64,000 nucleotides of DNA from Dichotomocladium elegans (lineage: Eukaryota > Mucoromycota > Mucoromycetes > Mucorales > Lichtheimiaceae): NCBI GenBank assembly GCA_025716815.1, contig JAIXMN010000001.1, positions 868,001 to 932,000 of the forward strand. The letters run 5' to 3'. The notes under the pieces were generated by a model, which ran no database searches, was not told the DNA's origin, and saw only the letters and a list, made by a program, of their open reading frames with translations. Shown here one piece after another: positions 12,579-58,451 of this stretch. The position numbers were made by a program, and so were the translations under genes. Each line of letters opens with the position of its first letter. Within the stretch, counting starts at the first letter, position 1.

Positions 12579-15500
12579 ATGGCTGGCTCAAAACGTAAAG
12601 CTGAACTGGAAGTCCCCATTGTTGATGAAAACGATCTATTGAAATTAACGCCGTTGGGCTCTGGGAATGAGGTTGGGCGTTCGTCCATCCTGCTGGAATA
12701 CAAGGGCAAAAAAGTCTTGGTAAGTAAATTTCAGTTTTTTTGTCAGTGATTCCTTTGCCTTTACCGTCGTCCCTTCATTGTCGCCTCTTTCGATCTCTAC
12801 TCTTGCTTTAATCGCCCCCCCATCAATGCGACCTGGGACATTCCTGCGAGCTGCTTGTTCATTGTTGGTGACATGAGAGTGACAGACGCAGGAAGAGGTT
12901 GTTGGGGACGATAGTGAGGCTTCTGTTACTCTGTAGACATGAATGGGGTTCCCTTCCTCCCTCCTATGCGCTCTAAATAAAAGAAAAACTTATCCAACTC
13001 ATACATATGCTTTTTTTTCTCTCTCTCTCTCTCTTTGCTGGTCTGGTTCTGGGATCAAAAAAGCTCGATGCTGGCATTCATCCTGCTTACAATGGTTTGG
13101 CCTCGCTTCCTTTCTTTGATGAAATCGACCCTGCGAGCATCGATGTGCTCTTAGTAACTCAGTAAGTGGGCAGTACGTTTTGTATGACGGCACTCTTCCC
13201 ACAACCTTTCCCCTCCTCTCCCATTGACGCTGTTGCATATCCCTATCTTTAGTTTCCACGTGGATCATGCTGCTGCCGTGCCATATTTGATGGAGAAGGT
13301 ATATATTTGAGTTTGTTTGGAGAGCATCACCAATTGACCCAAAATTTGTTGTTTCATCAGACTTCCTTCAAAGGCCGTGTCTTTATGACCCATCCGACCA
13401 AGGCGATCTACAAATGGCTGTTAAGCGATTATCTCCGTGTCAGGTATGTATATCACTTATTGAACCTAACCTCTCGGGTAGCGGTGGAGGTGAAACTCAT
13501 AGCGATCTTTTATAGTAATATCGGCGACGAAGATCAACTTTACAGCGAAGAGGATCTTATCACTTCGTTCAATCGCATAGAAGCTGTTGATTACCACCAG
13601 CAAGTCGAGGTGGAAGGCATCAAATTCACCTCTTTCAACGCAGGTCACGTATTGGGTGCAGCCATGTATCTCATTGAGATTGCAGGCGTAAAGGTGCTCT
13701 ATACTGGCGATTATTCCCGTGAAGAAGATCGTCATTTGATGGCTGCCGAAAAGCCTGATAGTCCAGTGGATGTCTTGATCGCAGAAAGCACCTATGGAAC
13801 ACAATCCCATGAGCCTCGTCTAGCCAAGGAAATGCGGTTTACATGCAAGTGAATGTGTCCTTTTTTTTGGGGAGGGGGAATATATCTCATTTTGAATTTT
13901 TTTTCCAATAGCTCTTGTGCACGATATCGTTGGGCGTGGTGGTCGATGTCTGATGCCGGTGTTTGCGCTGGGTCGCGCCCAGGAGCTGCTTCTCATCCTG
14001 GACGAGTACTGGGAAGCCCATCCCGAACTCGATAGTATTCCGATCTATTATGCATCCAGTCTCGCCAAGAAGTGCATGGCTGTCTATCAGACTTATATCA
14101 ACATGATGAATGCAAGAATTCGAAAGCAATTTGCCATATCGAATCCATTCGTGTTCAAACACATCAGCAACCTCAGAAACGTAGAGCAGTTTGAGGACTC
14201 TGGTCCCTGCGTGATGATGGCAAGTCCTGGCATGTTGCAGGTAAGAGAGCATTCGGGCATCTACATAATATACATTTGTCTTGCTAATACGATTGAAGAA
14301 TGGTCTATCTCGAGAGCTATTTGAGCGATGGGCACCTGACAAAAAGAATGGCCTGGTGATCACAGGTTATTGCGTTGAGAATACGCTGGCAAGAGTAGGT
14401 AGACAAAGCAGAGAAACCCCTCTCTGCACCCCCCCCGGGGGAATCGCTAATAATAATCACTTCTATCACAGCAAGCAATGAACGAGCCGCCGGATTTTAC
14501 TGCGATGGATGGGCGCAAAGTGTCTCTGCGCATGTCGATCGATTATATCTCATTCTCGGCACACGTTGACTTTACGCAAAATAGCAAATTTATTGAGGAG
14601 GTGAAAGCCCCGCATGTAGTAAGTACTTTTTCTTTATTTCGCAATAAAAGCTAAGGTCCGAAAATTTGCAAAAAGATGCTTGTCCATGGCGAGGCAAACA
14701 ACATGTTCCGGCTAAAGTCTGCGCTCCAGAGCCGGTATTCTGAGCGGGAGGAGAACGTCAAGATATATACTCCAAAGAACTGTGAAACCGTCAAGTTACA
14801 TTTTCGAGGAGAGAAGATGGCCAAGGTAAGTGAAATGGATACCTAAAAAAATGGCGTGGGGGGTGGACGCAACGGATGACCCGCGCAACTAAACCCTCAT
14901 CGTCGTTTATTGTTATTATCAACAAACTAGACGATCGGTAGCCTGGCTGCAAAATACCCCACGGAGGATGAACCGCTGAACGGTATTCTTGTTGCAAAAG
15001 ATTTCCAGCTGAACATCATGACGCCGGAGGACCTCAACGAACTTGGTGGACTCATCACCACCGTTATCACGCAGAGACAGGTCGTTCCCTTCAATGCGGC
15101 AACCAGCCTGCTCAAGTGGCATCTGGAGATGATGTTTGGCACTGTCCAGGAGACCGATCTTAGCAAGGTGGATGGATCGGTCGAGAAGGGGTCTGTGCTC
15201 CGCGTATTTGACACAATCGACATTAAGCAGTTAGACAACAGGGCGAATCAGCTGACGCTCGAGTGGATTGGCAATGCAATGAATGATATGGTAGCTGATT
15301 CGGTGCTTGCTGTGATCTTGTCCGTCGATAGCTCGCCGGCTAGCGTGAAAGGTACAGAGATGCGGAGACAGGATTAGAGAAATATACTCAAATCTTACTC
15401 TTAGTGAGCACCCAACCTTGCTCTCATGCGCACTCACATGACCATGATGAGTCGGTTCATGACAAGGTGGACAAGGAAATCAAGGCTGACTTTGAAAACA

Positions 15501-17747: not shown

Positions 17748-19820
17748 CTACCGGCTGCTCGAAGGAAGTGAAAACCGGTGAACTTGATATGCCCGCTCCA
17801 CTTCATCCCAGAGCGCATTCACCTTGTTAAGTTGGTGATGGAATTGCCTTGTGAGCTGCACGATGGTGCGCCACTCGGTGCCGCCGTGGCTGGTATAAGC
17901 GGACTTGACCCGGCTGTAGTAGATATCCCGTCGCTGCTCCTCGTCCTTGACATTGCTCGGCTCATCCACCTGATCGAGCGCAGACACATAGAGCGGATGC
18001 TCCTGGCTGATCTTATTTTTGAGGCGAATGTACTCCTGCTGTGCCTCGTCGTGGCTCTTGCACATGGCCCAGAATTGCGCCTGCGTCGTGATCGGACTGA
18101 CCACAATAGCTTCGTAGTGCTGGTCTTCGTCCTCATCCTCCGTTTCGGACGATCCACTCGTCGATGAGGACGTTGTCATGGTCGCAGGTGAGTCAGAGTC
18201 TGTCCGGGTCATCTTCGTTGTAGCTGTTGTGGTACCCATCTGAGGCTGCTTGCGGCCCTTTAACGGGTGGTGAGGTGGTTCTTTGTGCGAGGTGGTGGTG
18301 GTGGTAGGATTGGTATGCGTAGCAGAAGCTGATGTAATAGCAGTAGTGGATGCTTGAGAGGAATTTGGGGTGATTGCATTAGTAGAAGAGGAAGGCGTCG
18401 ATGCTGCAGTCGACGGCGTCGACTGTTGCTGCTGCTGCTGTCGCTGCTTCTGGTTGAGCGGTTTCTGTGGTGATTTGCGGGCAACCGCCTTGACTTTGCC
18501 CTTCGAATCCGTCTTGCTCCGCTTCTCATCGCCTTTTAAATTTGCGCCCGAAGATGGAGCCGATCGCTTGGCAGGCGATCGACCGTCGCCGGTTGCGTTG
18601 CCATGGGTCGGTGCTGTACTACTTCCACTCAACGCCCCGCCGTTGGCGGCGGTTGTTGAAACAGCGGCAGTACTACTGCTACTACCTGTTGCAGCAGCAG
18701 GTCCAACGGTCTTGCCGCCAGAACTGGAGGTGACACCGGGTGTAGTGGCTGGGTCATTCGACGATGTCCGGTGGGGCAAAGGTGCAACAAGTGTTTGGGG
18801 AGAAGCCTTCTTGCGCTGCTGGACGAGATTATGACGTTCGGGGGCATTGCGAGGCAATTTAAGGGCATCATAAGCATCCTCGGCATTCTTGATGACCGTA
18901 TTCCGTTCTTTATCATCATATCGCTTCCATCCCCATATCCGCAATTCCTTGTACACTTCGGGCCGAAGGCACCAATTGCCCTTGGATTCGACCGCGACCT
19001 TTTTCGCAACTGTTAATTTCGCACTTGTGGCAACGGAGGTTGGCGGTTTTACCTTTTTGAGAATAGGCATAAGATCTGTTTCTCGGATCTTGAGTTTTGT
19101 AGTCAGTTGGGAGAATGGATGAGGGTATATGGCGAGCAAGTGGATCAGCCGTTCTCTAACCGATTGAACAAATGCTGGATCCAATCGAGCGCTCGTTGGA
19201 GAAGAGCCAGGTAATGGTTTGCCAGTAGAGCTGGCGCGCGATGGCGAGGCTCTGACAGATGTCGGCGAGAGAATTCGTTGTCGTGTCGGTGTCGACGTCT
19301 TGTTGCTGGTGCGAGGCGACGATCCGACAGGGACGGTGGTAATGAGCTCCGTGCGCCTTGCGTTCTTTTCACGCTCGGCCTGCTCCGTCAGATGCCGCAT
19401 GCGCGACTTTTCTTCCTTCGAAAGCACCTGTTTCAATGTTCCGGACTGCACAACCTTGGCGAGAAAATCCACAGGTGTACTAGTCGTTGTCATTGCGGTG
19501 CCAGTGTCAATCCCAGGCGTACACTGGTACACCTGGTGTGGTAAATTCTGGCTGGGCTGGTAATTGACCGTAAACCGTTTATCTCCAATGACGAGAGACT
19601 ACATGGAAAGGCCAAACAGATTATAGAGAGATGGCGTGCGGAAGGGAATGAAGAACGAGAGTGGGGGAAGGAAAAGTGGGCAGAGCAAAGGTGGGGAATA
19701 AAGACTTACGGTGCTATTGTCCTGGTCCACATCAAGAACGATCTTTGCTGGAGCGTTCTGAAGAAGATCCAGAGCCTCACGATTTAATCGCAGTGCAATG
19801 GCTCGTTTGGGACATTGCAT
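17748..19820 (-). CDS. ELL: RNA polymerase II elongation factor ELL, 2 exons, 653 aa
   Basis: Exons 19710-19820 and 17748-19598 join in frame (GTAAGT donor, TGTAG acceptor). The N-terminal ELL domain spans about residues 1-260: LRLNREALDLLQNAPAKIVL, then SLVIGDKRFTVNYQ, then a winged-helix-like part with VRERLIHLLAIYPHPFSQL and ELRIWGWKRYDDKER. The middle 250 residues are low complexity (Ser/Thr/Gln, with poly-Gln). The C-terminus carries an occludin/ELL-type domain: ITTQAQFWAMCKSHDEAQQEY and further helices. ELL stimulates elongation by Pol II, with EAF as usual partner. It is found in fission yeast and animals but not in budding yeast. A second elongation regulator, NELF-B, lies in the same window. 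Confidence 0.85.
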
Positions 19821-20103: not shown

Positions 20104-23100
20104 CTAGAAATGTTTCACTTTGAACGTCCAAGTCCCCGTGTTCTCGTTGTAATCGACAAACTCGGCCATCGAGCGAGTCCTCAGCTTCTTCGCAAAGAGT
20201 CGGAAACGGGGATGTTCGGGATCACGGATTGGTTGTTTGGTGTCTTTGTCGAACGGGAAGCAGTTCTCGAGTCGTGCGATCGCAGGCACGTTTAATCCAC
20301 TTCCTTCCTCAGGCTTTGTTTCTTGCTTCGGATAAACTACTATTTGCCGTTCCCGAATAATCACCAGTCCGCCCATGATCGACGATAGCTCCACTTGGGA
20401 CAGGTCGACTGGAACAGCAAACTGTACTTCACCGTAGCCAGTGCGGCCGACAGTGAAGTTACTCACATGTTGAAGCTCTTCCTTCGCCATGGCCGCGAGC
20501 TCATTATATGAAGGTGACGAGTAGTAGCCCTCTTTCTCGGCAGTTAACGTAAAGGCAGGGGTTGACATAATCGCTGACAAGTCACCACTCTTGCTAAGGG
20601 CTGATGGGGTTTGTTCAGTTGCTTGGTTCTCGATTGGTCCGTCCTCCTGCTGCTGCTTGGATGCTGCGACAAGCTCGAGTTTCGGGTCAAACAATACCTG
20701 GGACGAACTGCTTTTCTTGTTAACGAGGGATTCGATCTCCGCTGCACTGACGTCTTTATCGAATATAAGCTTCTTGTTCATCGGGTGCTTCGAGAACGCG
20801 TCTCCCGAGAGTATTGCATCGTCACCGATGGTCTCAAGTGCGCTCAATTTTTTCGTGGACGGAGTGTAAGAAGGACTGAGGGCGAAGCCACGGAGCTTGA
20901 TCTTGGAGACAACCTGAGGAGAGGTCGGGAAGTGCGGCGAAGACATCTTTCTCTGGCTCTCTACGGGAATGGCCGAGGGTAATGCGTTGGCGCCCACTTT
21001 CTTGCTAGCGTCGTAGACAGAGTTCTGGCCGAAAGGGGATTTATCAACAGTGGCAAACAACGGTTGCTGTTGCTGTTGCTGCTGTTGTTGATTGCCCAGA
21101 AGGGTATTCGTTCCGAAAGACGTCAGCCCACCGGTATTAGGCGTTGTAAAGTTGCCAGGCTGCTGCTGTTGTGTCGAGCCGAATCCACCAAAGGTCGAGC
21201 CTATGGTGCCCGTTTGCCCGGCGCCAAATCCGCCAAATCCAGTACCGCTCGCTGCTGGCTTGACACCATAAGAAATTGAAATGTGAGATCGTAGGTCTTG
21301 AATCACAATGCATTATTATTAACAGAGGTGATAAAAAACATACCTGGTTTGTACCGAATCCGCTGGTACCAGCGTTTGTTGAACCAAAGCTAAACCCGGT
21401 CGTTGCTGCTGGTTGCTGTGCTGGAGCAGAAAAGGAGAACGATCCAAAAGGTTTGCTTGTAGAAGTACCAAACCCACCAGCGCCTCCACCGAACATGCCT
21501 GTACCTGACCCGAATCCACCACCCATGGGTTGCTGCTGTTGCTGCTGTTGCTGCTGTTGTCCTGAAATAGAAGTATACAAGCTATTTGTTAGCTTTCCAG
21601 AAAGGCAAGACTGTTCGATATAATCACCTGCACCAAATCCGCCAGCTGCACCTGCGCCAAATCCGGTCGTTGCCGATGGTTGTAATGCTGGAGTATTTAA
21701 GGATAAGGAACTGGTTGGTTTGCTAGCAGCAGAAGTGCCAAACCCACCAGCACCAGCACCAGCACCAGCACCAGCACCAAACCCAAAACCACCACTACCT
21801 GTGCCGAAACCACCGAAACCGTTCGTCGGTTGTGTTGATGCTGTAGATGTAGAAGGGGTGCCAAAACCACCGAAGCCACCAAAGCCAGTGTTCTGCTGTT
21901 GAGCAGGTTGGCCAAAGCCAGGCGTAGTACTCGCTTGTTGTCCAAAAGCAGTGTTACCACCCGAGAAAGCTTGACCTTTATCATGGTATGAGTAAAAAGA
22001 TGAATGGAAGCCAAGCGGCTTACCTCCAAAAGGTTTTGCAGCAGACGCACCAAACCCACCCGTGGTTGCTCCACCAAAGGGCGTCTGCTGTTGCTGTTGA
22101 CCTCCAAATGGTGTTGAACCCGCCGTACCGAAACCAGTATTTGTCGTCTGGCCAAACAGACTCGGCTGCTGCTGTTGTTGTTGTTGACCAAAGCCGGATT
22201 GACCGAAACCTGTGGTTGTGTTACCGAACCCTGTTGATAGGGTGGTAGTCGCGCCAAATGCACCACCCGACGCGGCAGTTGATGACTTGCGGTTTTGGGT
22301 ATAGTCTTGAAGTCTCAGCTCTTCAAGCGAGGACTTGGAATACTGCGGCATAGCTGTGATGGTCTGAAGGTAGTTGAAGACGCCCGTTCCAGTGTCACGT
22401 TCTTGTGACGGAGCGAAATCCGCAATAGCCGAACCTTGATTGCTGGCGCCAGCTGCTGCACCTGCACCAAACATACCACCTGAACCGAATGGTGAGGCGC
22501 CCGTATTCGCGCCAAATGCAGTGCTCTTCGATGCGTTGCCAAATCCAGAAGTTGGTTGGCCAAAGAGAGTGTTTCCTCCTGTTATGTTGCTTCCGCCAAA
22601 GGCTGAAGTAGCAGCAGCTAATTGTATGGACTAGTTTAACATCGAGTAAACCAAAAAAAAAAGTCGGTATGTATGTACTTACTGTTTGTCGATCCGAAGC
22701 CGCCAAAGCCAGTGGCTGTTGCGGCCGCCGGTTGTTGCTGCGCGCCTATATGCATCATCCAAAGTGAGACATTTCCTGCCTTAGCATCCCCCTCTCAGAA
22801 ACAATAAAAACCTACTTGTACCAAAGCTAAAGGCCGAAGTCGGTGTCTGGCCGAATCCTGTTCCTGTAGTGGCGCCAAAGCCACCACCTAATCAATCGTG
22901 TCAAAAAGAATCGAGTCAGTCAACCAGGCACAATCTTACATCATTGTTCATGAAACTACCTACCTACTGGTGCGGCCGAACCAAAACCAGACGTCTGTGT
23001 TGTTTGGCCAAATGCACTTGTTCCGCCAAAAGCGCTAGGTGTGGATGTGGCCCCGAAACCTAATAATGCCATGGTTAGATTCCTAACTTCCGCCTGTCTG

Positions 23101-23520: not shown

Positions 23521-26500
23521 TTACAGGCCTTCAGTAAGAATACGCTCAATGGTGGCATTGATAAATCCTTTTTTGATGGTGAGATCCACACCAAATCGCT
23601 GCGAGAGCTGATCACGTGCTAAAAAAGGGGAAATGTGGGAAGTTAGGTTGTTTGTCCGGGCCCAGACTCATTCCACTCGTCTACCTTGCTTCTTTGTTAA
23701 CTCCATCAAGTTGGCACCAATCAGAATGTGTCTTATCTCACGCTCAATCTCGTCATCCTCGGGCAAGATTGGCTTGCTCGCTTCTAGAGGCGAGGGTGTC
23801 GTACTTGTCAAAGCCCCATCATCTCCGTATATGTTTCCACGCTGCTGCGGCGACGTGGGCTGCTGCTGCTGTTGCTGCTGGAATAGTGCTGCTGATAAAT
23901 CCATCGAGAATTCAGACAGGTCTCGTTCAGAAAGCCCAGTAGCTAAATGTGGTACAAGGAACATGTTATTACTATGATTATGCTGCGCAACGCCAGAGTG
24001 CTCTGATCGCAAGTCGATGTTCTCCATCTCGTCTGCGCCGCTGCCACCTGTATATCGTGACATGGCTGTCCGGTCATCGTCTTCGTATGCTTCATTCCCA
24101 TCATCGTCGTCATACTGTTGCTGTTCGGCTAAAGCTTCCATCTCTTTTTCATATTGAGCCCATTTTTTCATTGGAATCATTTTGTCGTCAAACTTCTCAT
24201 CCTCTGTCACTATAATCTGTTTCTGCTTGTCGCCCACGACAACGCGAGTGTTTCCCCACGAGAAATCGTCAAAGTGCCAGAAAGAATAGATTGGGATCAA
24301 AAAGCTGAACACTGGGATGGCAAGGAGATAAATGACCATCCATCCAATGTGCTGCCACTGCCGCTTCACGATAAATATCAGGGCCTGCAGACCGTAAGCA
24401 CCAGCCAGCATTCCTAGTGCAATAACTGGTATGGGGCCTGTGCTTGAAGCGACAATGTACATCAGATAGATCAGATAAACAACAGAGGCCGGGAGCGTGA
24501 TAGTGCCAATAAGGTCGATCATCACGACAAAACGCATTGATAAGCAGCAAAACCCGCACAGCTCCGGTAACAGTATTAGCTCAAGTAAGTTGTGGATTGT
24601 TGAATTGATCCATCGACGGCGCTGGGACAACAAGATCTGCCAGCTGTCGGGTGCCACAGTGCGGCAACGAGCGTAAGGCGTGAACGTGATCTTATACTGC
24701 GGAAAGTTTTTCATCATAAGTGTCGTCAGATACCGATCTTCTCCCAAATGGAGAAGGTTCTTCTTGTGAAGAGTGTCGACCTGATTGTCAGAATAGCCAC
24801 GGATAATTGCTGGAGACACTATGAGCGGCTGTCGCTTGTTCGCCGTCCGAATGCGGTACATGCAGAAACATCCAGGCAAGCACGTGACTGAACCAAAAAG
24901 GGACTCGAATGCCTTGACAAGATGGTGCGAAATGTAATACTCGTATACTTGGATACGTGTTGTCCAGGACATGTCTTCATTGCACAGTTCGGTCTCACCA
25001 CACAACCCAATGATCCGACTGTCATGAAGCATGCAGGACACAAGCCGCGTCAGCGCGTCAGGATACACCTCGGTGTCCGAGTCCACCATCAAAATATATT
25101 CGTACAGTTTTGGATCAACACCGATCACATTGCGGATATTGTGATAAATTTTGAGCTCGAGCGGGGACATGTCGGCATCGAAATGCACCTTGCGCAAGAA
25201 GTCCATGCAGATGATCTGTGAGTCGCGCTTGCCACGGTTGCCAGGCTTGTTCTGTTCCGTTGATTTTCCGACTTTGACTACCACAATATAGGGCACGGTA
25301 TGTCCCTCATGCATGTAGAGACCCGAGTATACCTTGCCATAATTGAGCTGCTTGGAGCCTTCGCCTACTGATTTGAACATGACTGGCTCGGGATCCTCCT
25401 TATCGTCGTGACCCAGAATGTCTAGCAAGATCATAGGTGTTGGCTTGTCGTTTCCGCTGCCGATAATCATACCATCTGCGATGAGAAACAAAAGCTTCCT
25501 CTTGTCATCATAGTTCATGGTGGTCAAGGAGTCAATGGTTTTGCGAAGGGACTCCTCGCCTTCAGTATAACAGGGCACCTGGCAAATTACAAATTTGTCC
25601 TGGTCCTCGGGCGTGGGTGCACCACCGAACTGCAGCGCTGCCAGGAATTTGACAAGTACAACCAAGGTCATGACAACAGCAAAGCTCAAGAGCAGATAGT
25701 TCACAAAAGTGCACCGCAGTGACTCTCGGTGATCAAGTTTGCCAACATAAAATACGTTGTTGAGGCACGCTAGGTTCCGCGCCCGTGTGGTCTCGTCCAT
25801 TTTTGCTGCAAAACGGCCCCATTGGCTGGTTGCGTCGGTGCCGGCAAATTTTTGAAATAGACTCTCCACAGGGTCGCTCAGATAATGATAGTTGGGCATA
25901 TTGGTCGCATCTCGTGGATACCTCCGTGCAGTTGCCATATAGTCCGTCAGATCATACACCTTGCCATCCAGTGCCAGCGCAAGTCGACCCCAGCCTTTGA
26001 AATCATCCTCGAGTTGCTTTTTCGAGACAACTAAATCGCCCCTTTTGAAGTTGTCCATAACGGGCATGAAGTACCGTGTGATCCACTCCGGATCGCGCAG
26101 GTTCACAATGGACTTTTCGGTTTGCTGACCGCCCGAAAAATGGACAAATGGTCCGAGCACAATGGTTTCATTTGGCATGATCGTGACCGAGTCATCAGTA
26201 ACGAGACCGGCGCAAGCTTGTGTGAGTGGCGGCGGGAACGTGTAAGTCAAATCGCGACCAGCCAGAGGCTCAAGCGTTGATTTAGTGGCCATATAGGTGG
26301 TGGTGCCATGCGACGAAGCGACGAAGCGTGTCATATCGTACACTTTGCCACGGACACTGATCCAATAGTCGTTGATGGTTTGATGACCTACAACGTCTTG
26401 GGGCGTGTACAAATCATTTGTGCCCGGGCAAAGAACGTCCCCCAGACCCACAATGAAAAATATGATGCTTGCGGAAAACATGAAGATAAGCATACATAGC

Positions 26501-29436
26501 GTCACCTTTTCACGCCATGCCATCCGGACATCTTGACGATGCATTTTCCCAACCCAACGGAGCAAACAGGAGGGAATCCACCACGTACAAAACCAGACAA
26601 ATCGTGCCCACCAACGGCGGATGGAAGAGATAGGGACTACCTCGATCAACTCTTCAGCAGGTGCAGTATCTTCCATCATCTTGCTCATGTCCATGTTGGG
26701 TCCGTAGCTAAATACCGAGTGAGTTAGAAGCCATTCACTTCCGGAGGTGTATGTACAGAGATCGAAATATTTACCCATCGATGTACTCGTCATCCTCACC
26801 CCACTGACTTCCGCTGTGCTTCCCCATAATTTCGCTACCTAGACGGTCATCCACCTCTGTCCGATCGTCGTAGATATCGTGGTCGGTATAAATGTCGGAT
26901 CGACCATCATCTGGATCATTGAATGGATTGTCGCAGTCCATGGTTTCGTCAGAGTGCTTGCCATTATACTCTTCTTGATGTTCTGCATCGGCCGTTTCTG
27001 CTACAGCCATATCAGCGGCTTCTGCTTCTTGCTGTAAGCGAGCTTCCTCTTCCTCCTCGGCCGCTGCTGCCGCTGTTGCCGCTGCTGCTGCCGCTGCCGC
27101 CTCGGCCGCTGCGCGTTCTGCCTCCTCCATCATGCGCCGCTCGCGTTCGCGGATACGCTCTTCTTTCTCCAACATTCGCAGATGATTCTCAAGGTCACGC
27201 CAGACATCAAACGAGACAAGTACGTGATGCATACCCTGAAGTTGGACTTGTCGATCTGTCCATTGCATCATATGTATCAGTCTTTGCATCACATTACCTC
27301 CATCTTTGTCGGGAAGCATGTCTCCTAAGAAGGGGTAGCGCGACAAGAATTCAGTGAAACTGTAGCGATACATGTCACTCGAGGCATTGTCGTTAGTAGT
27401 CGACAGCAGTAGCTTGCGTAGTTGAGTCTGTACAGAGATTGGGTCAAATATTCCTGGCTTTTGCATGTCATTGGGTCGCACGTGCAAGATTTCAAATAGA
27501 CGAGTGGAAATAAGCGTACGCCCGAGTGTATCAATACTATTCACCATTTGATCCATAACAGTTTCTATTTTACGTTGTTTCAGTTGTGATTTGTTATCGC
27601 CATCATCGTCGTCTGTGCGGTGCCAACTGGCTGGGAAATTGGACAGTTGCGCCTTGATGATGGTACGTTCGTCCCGTGGGTGCGTTTCTGTTACAATTAG
27701 CGGGCTTTCAAACAACTCGCGCAGGAACGCGTTTGTACAACTGTATCTGAATAATAGGATGAAGTCTGGTGATAGCAAATCCAGATTGTTCTCCAGAAAA
27801 CCATCGACGGAGTACTCAACCGGCGCATGATAGTGTTGAATGACAAATTTCCGATGCTCTTTGTTTACTTCGACCACCTTTTTTGAAATGAGGGTCAGAA
27901 AGTTAGCGTCAGTGGCGTCAAGAGCGTATGCCTGGAGTCGTTCTGACTCTCGATTAAGGATTGGGATGAGCGTGTCCATCGCAGCCCCAGATGGCTCATG
28001 ATAGTGCCGAAATCGATACAGCCGCTCCTCGCAAAACTGCGCACACAGGTCGGCGAAGTCGAATGGCAAGGCGACGCCATCCGTGCTGCTCGCTCCTCCT
28101 CCTCCTCCTCCAGCAGCAGGATCTAGAATGTGGATGCGGTGGTCGCTCGTTTGGTGTAGGTGAGGGTGGTTCTTGTTGAGTTGGTCAACGATCCAAAAAA
28201 CCAGGATAGTATATAATGTGCGAGCTAGTGCATCGCGCTGCTGTGTCGCGCCTTGCACTGTCAGGAAAGCGGTGCAGAATTCTTTTCCGAGTAGCTTGAG
28301 CTTGTGTGTCAAAGTGGATTCTAGCTTTGGTGTGGCGACACCAAGTGCTGCGGCAACGAGGGATAAAGTATCTTTATTTTTGATACGACAATTATCGTTG
28401 GCGCTCGACGAGATGAATTGGATACTTCCAAGGTGGAGAATTGCCGCGAGCAGCTGACAGATCTGCGCAATCGTCTTGGATTTGAAGCCACATGCCTTGA
28501 GGGAGGCTTTAAAGTCACCAAACGCGATCTCGTCCCGTGCTGCAAGAAGCGGCGACCCGTTAAGTGAGTTGGCGGCGGCGGCTCGGAGCTGATGACCCTG
28601 CGGGTCTCTGAGGTATGCAAAGTGATCGGCGGGATGATTGATGTGCAGCGCAGCTTTTTCTTGGGCTGTCGTGCCTGCCAAGAGCTGATAAAAGAGATCA
28701 AAGGTGGCTGGATGGGCCGTGACGCGGAATTTATCAAGAAGATAAATGGCGGTGTAAGAGCCGAGGATGCGTCCCTTCTCATTAAAGTACAGCGTCTGGC
28801 ATTGGCTAAGATGGGATGCGTGTGCATTACGCGACGTAGAGGCCATGCTGAGGGCCTCCACCACGGTTTGGGCATTTTGAATGTACCGCTTTATCTTTTC
28901 TTCACGCTTGGTCTGGGCTGCCAGATGCAGCAGTTCGTTCAGCAGGTGCTGGTGCGTCGTTGACTTGCCTGATCCGGAAATGCCGCTGTAGAACACAAAC
29001 GATCAGCTATGCCCTGCTCGCTTTCAAGGGGAACAAGAGGAGGCGAAGTGTACGCTGTGCGTGTGTATGCGTTTAAAATAAGTTACCTCAAGATAATTCC
29101 AACATTCTCATCTTTCCGACGCATTACAAAGTACGCTCGTGTGGCAAACTCGTATATATGAGCGTCGGATGGTCCGCGCGTAGTGCCGTCCCCGCTTCGT
29201 CCGCACATTCCTCCACCCGTCAGATTTTTGTACCCAGAATCGGCATAAGCTTGGAGCATATGGTCGTTGAGTAGTTCTAACGGCTTGTATGGGTTGACAA
29301 CAACAAGGCGATGATGACCAAGCTGAGCATACGGTTGATCCTGTACGAATTGTGTATGAAGAGCCTCGCATACTACACTGCTCGGCTCTCGATGTTGCTG
29401 TTCGTTGAGGAGCCGAGCAAGGTCATTGGAAGCCAT
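23521..29436 (-). CDS. Chitin synthase with N-terminal myosin-motor-like domain (class V/VII), 4 exons, 1893 aa
   Basis: Exons: 29087-29436, 26775-28985, 23685-26707, 23521-23618. Residues 1 to about 740 resemble a myosin head: HRLVVVNPYKPL, P-loop SGISGSGKSTT, and FCEERLYRF. The switch regions are poorly kept, and an Ala/Glu-rich coiled segment follows. Next come membrane helices, a cytochrome-b5-like segment (YTPQDVVGHQTINDYWISVR), and the glycosyltransferase domain with MVDSDTEV, EDRYLTTLMMK and the catalytic QRRRW. The short last exon encodes a DEK-C-like end (DQLSQRFGVDLTIKKGFINA). Exon 3 contains a Gln run near its end. The enzyme polymerises UDP-GlcNAc into wall chitin at growing tips; the motor-like part is thought to help tether or deliver it. 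Length fits the class. Confidence 0.95.
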
Positions 29437-53027: not shown

Positions 53028-55498
53028 ATGAACGATCCCAGTAGTCTGTCCAATCTCCACGAAATCAAAACTACCCATCTGCACCTTGACTGGTCCATTA
53101 ATTTCGAGGAGCGCAAGATTGCCGGTTTTGTCCTGCTTGATCTTGTCGCAATCAAGAACGATGTGACGCGGGTGGTCTTGGACACGAGCTACCTTGATAT
53201 CACTCGCGTTTCGCTTGATGGCGGTGACCTCAAAGTAATGTTTATGTGATGCGCAACTTCCTAATGTCATAAGCTGACCTTTATTCCCCAAGTTCAATGT
53301 CGCGGAGCGCCATAAAGCCTTAGGCTCAGCTATGACCATTGAGCTCCCCGGCCCCGTGGCAAAGGATACTAAGCTCCAAATCAAGGTGGAGTATTCAACT
53401 ACTGAAAAGTGCACGGCTGTTCAGTTCTTGGAGCCGGAGTAAGTGAATCTTAAAAAAAAACTGGTTAAACAAGCTGACTGGGCCATCCACTCTAGGCAAA
53501 CTCTCGGAAAGAAACATCCTTATCTTTTCTCACAATGTCAAGCAGTAAGTGTTAACGAGCGAGTAGCCGGATGATGATGGTCGTTTTGGGTATGTGAGGT
53601 GTTGAGCAGAGGAGTTTAGATCCATGCACGGTCATTTGTGCCTTGCCAAGATTCTCCTGGCATCAAGATAACCTATTCGGCCGCGGTGACATCGCCTCTG
53701 CGGGTGGTTATGTCTGCCTTGAACATTGCGGATGAAGACTTGGGCAACGGTTTGAAGACCTATCACTTTATCCAAAAGACAACTATGCCTAGCTACTTGC
53801 TTGCTATTGCTGCCGGCAATTTGGTGTCTCGAGAAATTGGTCCCCGAAGCTCGGTGTGGTGTGAGCCTGAGATGGTGGATGCCGCCGCTTGGGAGTTTGA
53901 GGTCAGTTTTCGAATAAGGAAAAAAAGGGGAAGGGGGCACTTTCCGTACTATCAATGCTGATGTTATTCCAGAGTACCGAGACCTTTATTGCTACGGGTG
54001 AGAAGCTGTTGACACCTTACGAGTGGGGTCGCTACGATCTCTTGGTGCTTCCACCCTCTTTCCCATATGGCGGAATGGAGGTAAATATTGCCGATATCCA
54101 TGAAGAGCTTCTTAAAAAGGAGATTAATTCCTCTTTTGCACCTTTTACAGAATCCGTGCCTGACTTTTGTGACCCCGACCTTAGTGACAGGTACAGTGCT
54201 GTTCTGAACGAAGATGGATTATTATTTCTGACACTTCGTACTTAGGTGATCGGAGCGCTGTTGACGTCATTGCCCATGAGATTGCTCACAGCTGGATGGG
54301 CAATTTGGTTACCACTGGTAACTGGGTAAGTATACTTCGATATTATGGCGTGTGATGATGTTACATAGCTGAAACGTCTTTGGAACGACAGGAACATTTC
54401 TGGCTCAATGAGGGTTGGACCGTTTTTATTGAACGCAAGATTCTCGCGCATTTGCACGGCGAACTTGAACGGCAATTCAGCTCTATCATTGGTAATTACA
54501 ATCGAAGCTTGCTAAATGAAAAAGAGTCTTGACGAATACACAATAGGATGGAAGGCCTTGAAAGAAAGCGTTGACCTCTTTGGTAACGATTCTCCAGCAA
54601 CTGCGTTGAAGCCTGACTTGAGCAGTGGCATTGATCCTGATGACTACTTTAGTTCCATCCCTTATGGTAACTTGCTTTTCTTTAATGGATCTTCGATCTT
54701 TAGACGTTGTCTTACCTGTTTGCATATTTCTTTTTTAGAAAAGGGCTTCAATTTCCTGTACCATATTGAAAAGGTCGTCGGCGGACCTACTGTTTTTGAG
54801 CCGTTCATGAAGGCCCATGTTGAAAGGTTTGCATCTCAGTCCATCACTACGGAGGAATGGAAGTCTTTCCTGTTCGAGTACTTTGAGAAGCACCACGGCA
54901 AGGAAGTAGTTGAGAAGCTCAATACCATCGACTTTGACGCTTGGATCAATGGCACTGGCATGCCGCCTGTTGATCCGAAATTCGATACGACCTTAGCTGA
55001 CCAGTGCTATTCCCTCGCGAAGCGTTGGGACGAAGCCCGTGACTCGACTGACTTTGCTGATTTCTCGCCTAGTGATATTGAGAATTTCACTTCGAATCAG
55101 AAACGTAAGTGAGTGAAGCACTCTGGGATTTCTTGGCTTCTAAAGATGCAGGTGTGATAGTTGTCCTGCTCGAGCGTATGACTGATCTCGAACCGTTTCC
55201 TCACCACGTTCTGGCCAAGATGGACGAGCTGTACAAGATGACGGCTATTCGAAATAGCGATGTTCGCTTCCGATGGCAGCACTTGTGCCTGATGGCCAAT
55301 TATAAGCCAATCTATCCACATGTCCTTGAATTTGTTGTTGAGCAGGGTCGTATGAAATTCGTCCGACCGCTTTATCGATTATTGTACAAGGCCGACGGGG
55401 GTGCTGATCTTGCGCGTGAAACGTTCATTAAGCACAAAGCGTTTTACCATCCTATCGCTGCTCAGTTGATCGAAAAAGACATTGGCCTGGCAGAATAA
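53028..55498 (+). CDS. LTA4H: M1 aminopeptidase/leukotriene A4 hydrolase family, 10-11 exons, frame break near the end
   Basis: Exons: 53028-53234, 53293-53438, 53496-53544, 53620-53901, 53973-54080, 54151-54190, 54246-54325, 54392-54491, 54547-54666, 54739-55104, then either 55146-55498 or a shifted frame. The N-terminus [20 protein letters not shown] matches the LTA4H family. The substrate loop FPYGGME is followed by the zinc site HEIAH (about residues 288-292) and, 18 residues on, Glu 311 in WLNEGW. The C-terminal helical domain has [15 protein letters not shown] and [12 protein letters not shown]. The product is a cytosolic leucyl-type aminopeptidase. At 55105 the frame must change: a 41-nt GTAAGT...AAAG intron works but would remove residues (LWDFLASK) that look coding. 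Confidence 0.9.
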
Positions 55499-55558: not shown

Positions 55559-56149
55559 ATGACACGCACCAAAGACGACCCCGCGAGTCGCACTAAGCGC
55601 AGCTTCATGCGCTATCTTTTTGTTACAAACCCAAGTCGGTTAGAAAGCGGCAGGCCCGTGTTTCCCCTGACTGTCGATGATCTCCTTGAATACATCAACT
55701 TTCGATCAAAGACATCAACCTTCCGCACAATTCAATGGTATATCCGCAGTCTCCATCATGATCCTTTGCATGGCCCCCATTGGAGACAACAAGTGTTTTT
55801 CCATCCTCGCGTAGTCGAATTGCTCGAATCCTTGAGAAGACGGGATCGTATGACAAGCCCCTCTCCCTGTTCGGCCAAAAAGAAGCCTGCAAAGAAATCC
55901 GCGGAAGAAGTTCGCGCAGCGCCACCGCCTGTTCCCGATGCGTCCGGGAAACCCACAGCGCCGCTTGCTCAGCCTGTCAGTATGACACCCAGAGAACCGG
56001 TATCACTCGTTCAGCAAGAATCGACGGCGTCGGTGACCGCACCATCAGCACAAGACCCGGCCCTATCATATGCAGTCGATCTGAGTCTCACCCGCCTTCA
56101 ACGACGCGTTTGTCTCGTTAATGATCCTCTTCCCGTGACCTGGTCATGA
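55559..56149 (+). CDS. Hypothetical protein with possible integrase-type core-binding fold, 196 aa
   Basis: Single exon with its ATG only 60 bp after the aminopeptidase stop. Residues 1-95 are helical (FMRYLFVTNPSRLESGRPVF, TVDDLLEYINFRSKTSTFRT, WYIRSLHHD, FHPRVVELLESLRRR) and recall the N-terminal DNA-binding domain of tyrosine recombinases. No catalytic domain follows. Residues 100-196 are Ala/Pro/Ser-rich with a KKKPAKK patch. It could be a DNA-binding protein derived from a mobile element, but this is inference. I do not recognise a named family. Confidence 0.5.
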   Translation: MTRTKDDPASRTKRSFMRYLFVTNPSRLESGRPVFPLTVDDLLEYINFRSKTSTFRTIQWYIRSLHHDPLHGPHWRQQVFFHPRVVELLESLRRRDRMTSPSPCSAKKKPAKKSAEEVRAAPPPVPDASGKPTAPLAQPVSMTPREPVSLVQQESTASVTAPSAQDPALSYAVDLSLTRLQRRVCLVNDPLPVTWS

Positions 56150-56276: not shown

Positions 56277-58451
56277 TCATTGTGCATGTTGCTGCCGTTG
56301 CTGTTCTGCAAAATTGGTCACGAATTGAAGCACAGCTGGAGGTGCAATCCGGAATTGACCATCCAAAATAGTTTCGGATCGATGGAGGAGGTTGTTATAC
56401 GCGTTAATGAGATCATAATCCTCCTAACATTCATATCAATCGGCTTTGTATCTTTTGCGCACGCATCACAGACCCCCCCGTTTGCTCTTCTACTTGCCTT
56501 CTCGTTCCGACTGCCATGTTGGCATATATAGTTCGCCCACTCAGCAATGAGCGCCACCTTTTCATTCAGCGTGGTCAAGTACGAGGATTTCAAAAAGTAT
56601 TCGGAAAGTAAGAGGACAACTTGCTTATGTGCAAGAGGGTCCCACCGCACAATTTGGAGCAAGAAATTCTCCATAACAACTTGACGCCACATGACATCCT
56701 TGACGCAGTTCAGAAGCCATTTTTTCGCTAGGACACTCACAAATGTCCCTACAAAGCTCTGATAAGTGAACACATGGGTAATGTTCGCGTCGTCCTGTAA
56801 TGGCAACGATTCCAAGATAAATGGGAGACACCGTTGAAGCGTAGCCACATCGCCTTCATACGCTCGATCGATGCAGTAGTGTATCATTGCTTTACGCGCA
56901 GTTTCGCTCCGGAGAAGCATAGAAGATATCACCTCACTTTCGCTCGGCGCAACGTAGGCTTTCGGGTTGTTTTCTTCGACAATGATTGTGCACAATGCGT
57001 TCCAGAATCGTCCACGAAGGTCCTTATCAAGCTTTGGGATTTTTTGATTCAGATTGGCTGCAGCAGGCGCGTGTTCAGCCAGGTTGAGCAGCTTCGCATT
57101 ATAGTTGATGAGTTGCTCTAGATTCCCCGGGGCATCATCGTCAACGCTGATACGGAGCCATCGCACAATGCACTGGGTTAAAAAGTTAGATATCACAGGA
57201 TCCATAAGGATCATGGCAAATTCACTATATTCCGTCATAGATCAATACTCCTACTTTTCTTCGTTCGTATCATCACAGCTACCTAGTTGTAGCATTATAA
57301 CGATTGATTACCTGTAAAGTTGCGTGCCGTTCTTAACGTGATCAAAGCACTGCTTGATTTTTTCGATAATGACATCGTCCATGTTTTGCTGACGTACACA
57401 AGTATCAAGAGACCAGATGAGATCGTGACACTTATCTTCCTCATACACCTACTCAATGGGTGTATCTTAGTGACATTTCTTTTCAAGAATTGCGGACTGA
57501 GATTTCAAGTTACCTCGGAAATGTCTCTGTCGTGATAATTCATTAGGATGTCAACGCGGATAGAGCAAAGACTAGGATAGGGTGTTGATCTGAAGACAAT
57601 CTGGACGGTTTCCAAGAACATGAGGTAGAGTTTTGGATCTCCATTTATCATTTCCATCATCCGTGTCATCTGTGGGTGGTTTCTCCTAGAGGCGAATATA
57701 AGTTGAACGTTTGACTTTATTAAAGCCATGATCAAATATATATACCGTTCAGTAAGGACTTCTTGGTAGCTGTCGGGTCGAAGGTTCATTGAAAGCTTTT
57801 GGAGTTCCTCATCGTGATGGTATTCATTTAGCATGCTGAGTACCTGGACTTGGAAAAATGTCTCGTCTTGCTTCCAGATCTGCTGTTTTACATTTAATGG
57901 ACAATTCTACCACCACAAACAGGCGGAATTAATTATTTGCACAAGCACATATTTTCTGTTCAAGCATGCCAAGTCTATATACCTGAAAGACCTCCTGGTC
58001 GTTTTTGAGTTGGTCAAGGACATCTTGATCGATATGTTCTGAAAATTTCTTCAATAAGGCCATAGGAATAGGTTGCAGGTGCGAGCAACGGATATATTTG
58101 AAGCTGTCGCTGAACACTCGCTCAAAGCTGCCAAAACGCAAATGGAGGTAAGCGAAATCCGCGGACGCATGTTCATTTTTCATAGACAATCGATTTTTAC
58201 TCTGCCAGCAAGAATTCGGGTGTTTTGATCTTTTCTACCGCAGCGGTATTCAGTGCATGTAGACATGCCCAGTGAATTTCTAGTCGACTACACCCAGACA
58301 GATCGAGTAAGGGGTAGATAGAATCCATGGAGGGCACAATGTCGAGGCCGTAGATCTTCTGAATGTCATTAATCGCTTTCTCTAGATCGCCTTCTCCCGT
58401 CAACTGTTGATAGATAGTTTCTGTTGCTGGCCCTAGCAGAATCTTCGACAT
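56277..58451 (-). CDS. NELFB: NELF-B (negative elongation factor B / COBRA1) homologue, 6 exons, 599 aa
   Basis: Exons: 58201-58451, 57983-58127, 57514-57906, 57312-57448, 56498-57224, 56277-56423; the joined frame is 600 codons with stop, close to animal NELF-B. Family landmarks run in order. KAINDIQKIYGLDIVPSMDS and PLLDLSGCSRLEIH lie near the N-terminus. VKQQIWKQDETFF, PKLYLMFLETVQIVF, and CSIRVDILMNYHDRDISE come next, then DKCHDLIWSLDTC and AMILMDPVISNFL. Late in the protein PLAHKQVVLLL and EKVALIAEWANYIC follow. In animals NELF-B is a scaffold of NELF, which with DSIF holds Pol II near promoters. The last intron (56424-56497) uses a GCAAGT donor, needed to reach the 48-residue end. Other NELF subunits are not in the window. 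Confidence 0.88.

Follow-up and report, generated by a model that had tools for sequence, protein, structure and literature searches.

A fungal orthologue of NELF-B, with NELF-C/D and Integrator genes in the same genome, in Dichotomocladium elegans

Negative elongation factor (NELF) is a brake on transcription known chiefly from animals, and Integrator is a machine that terminates transcription early. Among the known systems closest to the genes discussed here are two human ones: the NELF subunit NELF-B, also called COBRA1 (PDB 8jj6, 7ycx, 8w8e), and Integrator-PP2A assembled on paused RNA polymerase II (Pol II) (INTAC-PEC; 7ycx, 7pks). A two-subunit NELF core has been placed in the common ancestor of eukaryotes (PMC11482795), and orthologues of NELFB and NELFC, not of NELFA and NELFE, are stated to occur in fungi (PMC10591015, cited here and below from its available portion). 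NELF and Integrator together have been called specific to metazoans in the accessible part of PMC12667398, and Integrator restricted to metazoans in that of PMC9006982. Here we describe a gene at 56277..58451 of a 64,000-nucleotide window (the whole stretch of DNA analysed: GenBank assembly GCA_025716815.1, contig JAIXMN010000001.1, positions 868,001 to 932,000) from Dichotomocladium elegans, a member of the Mucorales, family Lichtheimiaceae, in the NCBI taxonomy. The gene encodes a fungal orthologue of NELF-B, and the same genome holds genes for both core NELF subunits and for no fewer than three subunits of Integrator, the nuclease included.

Several searches carry this assignment. The 579-residue product scores 147.9 bits against Pfam COBRA1 (PF06209; cut-off 22) over residues 100-406, and a sequence search of the PDB retrieves human NELF-B at E 1.6e-38, all six matches at E <=1 being NELF-B, within query residues 11-373. 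With a fungal profile as query, the NELF-B match stands at E 6.6e-63 and covers profile positions 10-431 of 573; six of the ten PDB matches at E <=1 are again NELF-B, the other four lying at E 0.027 or worse. NCBIfam gave no match for this protein or for the NELF-C/D protein described below. The original prediction, made from the DNA letters alone, had read a fungal NELF-B homologue here, at exactly the coordinates of our gene model and with four quoted motifs that are all contained in the product, and these searches bear it out, far beyond what chance would give. Its further claim, that the product follows NELF-B from end to end, is borne out by the fold and not by the sequence. A fold search with a modelled, 68%-identical orthologue predicts that almost all of the chain, to near the C-terminus, is folded as in NELF-B, and the length is close to the human one (579 vs 580). 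Sequence similarity to human is detected at profile positions 10-431 of 573 only, and identity is 16-32% by region, lowest towards the C-terminus.

A second NELF subunit is encoded in the same genome. NELF-C/D lies at about 292.6-294.9 kb of contig C50 as a nearly complete coding sequence, with a TH1 match at E 1.1e-84 and the NELF-C fold, and the NCBI entry "TH1 protein [Dichotomocladium elegans]" (P0034, 576 aa) is this protein. Thus, neither of the outcomes that the original prediction had named as counting against it occurred, since it is NELF-B, not a non-NELF helical-repeat protein, that the product matches best in the PDB, and another NELF subunit is present in the genome. We discarded our own 584-aa model of NELF-C, whose N-terminus is unsettled and which keeps a C-terminal intron, in favour of the better P0034. 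Near 293.9 kb of C50, NELF-C/D has a GC-AG intron (CGAGAG|GCAAGT), as NELF-B does, and P0034 joins likewise. A search for relatives of NELF-C/D gave 21 matches, 19 with an organism name and none from Mucor or Rhizopus, where NELF-B is found; it scores only candidates sharing exact words, and this gap is no evidence of loss.

The genome also encodes parts of Integrator, for which six Integrator-related families were searched. INTS11 (C2:885774-886127; L015:1027-2508; minus strand) was recognised by its Beta-CASP match and by its score to human INTS11, 716.9 bits vs 300.2 to CPSF73 over a long open frame. It is a distinct gene from the beta-CASP gene at 13.9 kb of the window, the genome having four beta-CASP matches; the latter appears as a CPSF73-like Beta-CASP exon at window 13896-14324 on the plus strand (Pfam E 4.1e-18), its name coming from a reading of the sequence. 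INTS2 (C1:517415-518006, minus strand) has a family match at E 1.0e-15; one of its exons, preceded by two residues of the neighbouring frame, has human INTS2 as its sole PDB match (E 0.0033). INTS3 (C101:38041-39336, minus strand) matches in five stretches, the best at E 8.7e-25. Contamination is an unlikely source of these genes because the contigs are 1.09 to 2.43 Mb long and INTS2 shares the contig of the window. Homologues of INTS2, INTS3 and INTS11 of the human INTAC-PEC are therefore also found in D. elegans. Among the papers seen in literature searches that covered few subscription journals, none described Integrator in Mucorales, and one mentions Integrator a single time, as background; the pairing of NELF with Integrator in this order is less noticed than NELF-B itself.

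How might these proteins work together? We lean towards a reading in which the NELF-B orthologue, with NELF-C/D, forms a core that detains Pol II early and passes it to Integrator. NELF-B and NELF-C/D probably form the two-subunit NELF core assigned to the eukaryotic ancestor in PMC11482795. Such a dimer would bind DSIF-bound Pol II shortly after initiation (an Spt5 NGN domain is present in the genome) and would slow or hold the early polymerase. Pol II held in this way could then be offered to Integrator, where the INTS11 nuclease could cut the nascent RNA and so bring transcription to an early end. The mutual binding of the two NELF proteins, their binding to Pol II and DSIF, the slowing of Pol II and the joint action with Integrator are all steps that we infer. 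No other reading makes use of as many of the components present as a B/C core handing Pol II to Integrator, and promoter-proximal pausing may occur in D. elegans.

A number of observations weigh against this reading. In exon-by-exon searches of the genome in which no control matched, we found no match to the INTS6 beta-barrel (PF25462), which is the Integrator part touching NELF-B in human, nor to INTS1_RP2B-bd (PF12432) or INTS13 (PF10221), so that these elements of the human INTAC-PEC are without a counterpart among our matches. The same type of search gave no match to NELF-A_N (PF23553), a result that cannot show absence because the domain is short and intron-split genes were searched exon by exon. 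The NELF-AC lobe of human complexes is able to block the secondary channel of Pol II, and NELF-E contacts DNA (PMC11881899, available portion); given these roles and the missing NELF-A_N match, a dimer of B and C may have a weak slowing effect on Pol II, or none. In addition, the available part of PMC10501182 reports pull-downs in which adding DSIF and NELF hardly altered the binding of Integrator to Pol II, so the NELF-Integrator contact would be at best a modest anchor. Finally, roles other than pausing have been proposed for NELFB and NELFC (PMC10591015).

This last point leads to a different and rather unlikely explanation, namely that NELF-B and NELF-C/D act mainly outside pausing, either in cytoplasmic signalling or, with Integrator, in forming the 3' ends of small nuclear and other non-coding RNAs. 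Mammalian NELFB does have a cytoplasmic role in growth signalling, and other functions of NELFB and NELFC have been argued for organisms without documented pausing (PMC10591015); the presence of INTS11, INTS2 and INTS3 would suit a role in 3'-end formation as well. Yet the kinases to which this signalling role is linked were studied in mammalian cells, and in such cells NELFB needs the co-retained NELF-C/D to be recruited to the nucleus or kept there (PMC10591015).

Somewhat less likely still is a full animal-like NELF, in which diverged NELF-A and NELF-E are encoded in the genome and pausing is focused near promoters, as the original prediction had suggested it might be. The limits of the NELF-A_N search leave room for it, as does the NELF-B fold, which is kept near the C-terminal end, where mammalian NELFB binds NELF-E (PMC10591015). 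However, HEXIM (PF15313) is without a match in the genome as well, again with no control matched, and the sequence of that end has changed most. In mammalian NELFB, deletion of the first 78 residues, or a change at site 183 or 194, abolishes NELFC binding, and deletion of the last 60 residues, or a change at site 486, abolishes NELFE binding (PMC10591015). Measured over 19 fungal sequences, the mean BLOSUM62 score against human residues 1-200, 201-319, 320-453, 454-520 and 521-580 is, in that order, 1.07, 1.72, 0.50, 0.28 and 0.00, the last of these regions being the stretch required for NELF-E binding; the binding sites were mapped in mouse and are applied here by human numbering, and human is the sole NELF-E-bearing animal compared. 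Identity among the 19 fungal sequences runs from 0.588 and 0.657 through 0.479 and 0.419 to 0.343 over the same five regions, and D. elegans NELF-B shares 24% identity with human residues 1-200 and 17% with the last 60. This regional pattern fits a constrained NELF-C-binding part and a less constrained NELF-E-binding end and is not proof of it: the middle of the protein (201-319), not the NELF-C-binding part, is most conserved. The RNA-binding domain of NELF-E is common to many proteins (PMC11482795).

Returning to a B/C core that hands Pol II to Integrator, we can tentatively envision more, though we hold it to be doubtful: that Mucorales retain a reduced checkpoint near promoters, in which a NELF-B/C core that lacks NELF-A, NELF-E and HEXIM is coupled to a functional nuclease of Integrator. 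If this were true, the original role of NELF would have been to provide a docking platform for the early termination of transcription, and focused, regulated pausing would be a later animal addition. Many Mucorales are culturable, and they could therefore reveal what the NELF core does where NELF-A has not been detected (for NELF-E, no search was made). The gene is ordinary in itself; its value lies in the opening it gives for testing the role of NELF before animals.

The structure of the gene itself is that of an intact locus. It lies on the minus strand, with the ATG at 58451 and a stop codon ending at 56277, and its seven exons (58201..58451, with the same start as the NCBI model P0001; 57983..58127; 57746..57906; 57514..57685; 57312..57448; 56498..57224; and 56277..56423, including the stop and placed with the help of an alignment of database relatives) join in frame, with splice sites throughout, to give 579 residues. 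Five introns are GT-AG and the sixth (56424..56497; AAG|GCAAGT...TTAG), which links exon 6 to the C-terminal exon, is GC-AG. The 599-residue product of the original prediction did not stand, having retained intron 3 (57686..57745) in error; this intron of 60 nt is GT-AG, in phase and without a stop, and was read as 20 coding residues. We take it to be spliced out because relatives skip the 20 residues, the COBRA1 score is higher without them (147.9 bits vs 134.3) and the splice sites fit. In fact, 27 of 33 database relatives, P0001 included, cross the junction without these residues; P0031 does so too, with fewer than 50 residues on one side, and in the remaining five the alignment has a gap at the junction or stops before it.

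At the other end of the gene, P0001 (517 aa) matches our model through most of exon 6, then departs from it and finishes with SEREGK, 62 residues shorter; it skips the GC-AG intron 6 and the last exon, the departure lying within 56277-56560. At least 36 of the 48 residues of exon 7 align in 24 of the 33 database proteins, and only 3 in P0001. Since the exon behind the GC-AG intron is conserved in this way, the seven-exon model is probably better than the deposited one. The shorter NCBI model and the GC donor at the sixth intron could also be taken as signs of a decaying relic of NELF-B; we regard this as very improbable for a gene with a single open product and complete splicing signals, a mean column identity of 60% over 19 Mucoromycotina sequences and a C-terminal exon so widely retained. 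That the gene encodes a generic HEAT-repeat protein is hardly credible, for although the modelled protein is all-helical and its weak fold matches (E >0.02) include importins and exportins, the NELF-B matches in the PDB sequence search and in the fold searches refute it.

A protein database search with NELF-B gave 33 proteins at E <= 0.001. Thirty-two of them are named relatives, which we take to be Mucorales and one Umbelopsis, and the 33rd is a JGI protein. One example is "negative elongation factor b" of Lichtheimia corymbifera (P0002), 68% identical across 97% of the query. Several of the Mucorales proteins in NCBI/UniRef are already named Negative elongation factor B, and P0001 is the same Dichotomocladium gene with a different C-terminus. 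A repeat search with the 19-sequence profile scored 7994 candidates and returned the same 33 proteins; how far the gene extends in other fungi is therefore not answerable from this search, which reached Mucoromycotina only and has no bearing on absence elsewhere. Given these names and the statement of fungal orthologues in PMC10591015, the presence of NELF-B in fungi is already known. The core described in PMC11482795 resembles that of D. elegans in having NELF-B with NELF-C/D and no detected NELF-A; in its main text, a word starting with "fung" occurs once, and words starting with "rhizopus", "mucor" or "chytrid" do not occur. Our literature search found no paper on NELF-B in Rhizopus or COBRA1 in Mucorales. 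The available portions of PMC11062913 and PMC7980224 hold nothing on fungi, and that of PMC12716044 reports that no NELF was found in Paramecium.

The original prediction had also placed an ELL gene 37 kb from NELF-B and seen in the two an animal-like set of elongation regulators. The candidate (17748..19820, minus strand; two exons, one at 19820-19710 and one running from 19598 to where the open frame ends; 653 aa) is a weak one. Its Pfam ELL score is below threshold (19.7 bits vs 22.9; E 6.5e-4), a UBR1-like winged-helix model fits nearly as well (18.7 bits), and a PDB search returns no ELL, its sole match being an antibody chain at E 0.27. A genome-wide ELL search, with one candidate scored, gave no match at E 1e-3. 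The gene is thus possibly ELL, and this part of the prediction was not confirmed; with NELF-A_N and HEXIM also unmatched, neither was the animal-like set. ELL is in any case not animal-specific, as fission yeast has one.

Other genes were noted in the window. A Nup98-type nucleoporin (20104-22630, minus strand), with an autopeptidase domain and an FG-rich upstream frame, adjoins the ELL-like gene, and a chitin synthase (23668-26838, minus strand) has a cytochrome b5-like domain together with a match to DEK_C that stays below threshold. On the plus strand, the C-terminal exons of a leukotriene A4 hydrolase-type M1 peptidase lie at 54516-55498. Just downstream of NELF-B is a 196-codon open frame (55559-56146, plus strand) with no Pfam match at E 0.01.
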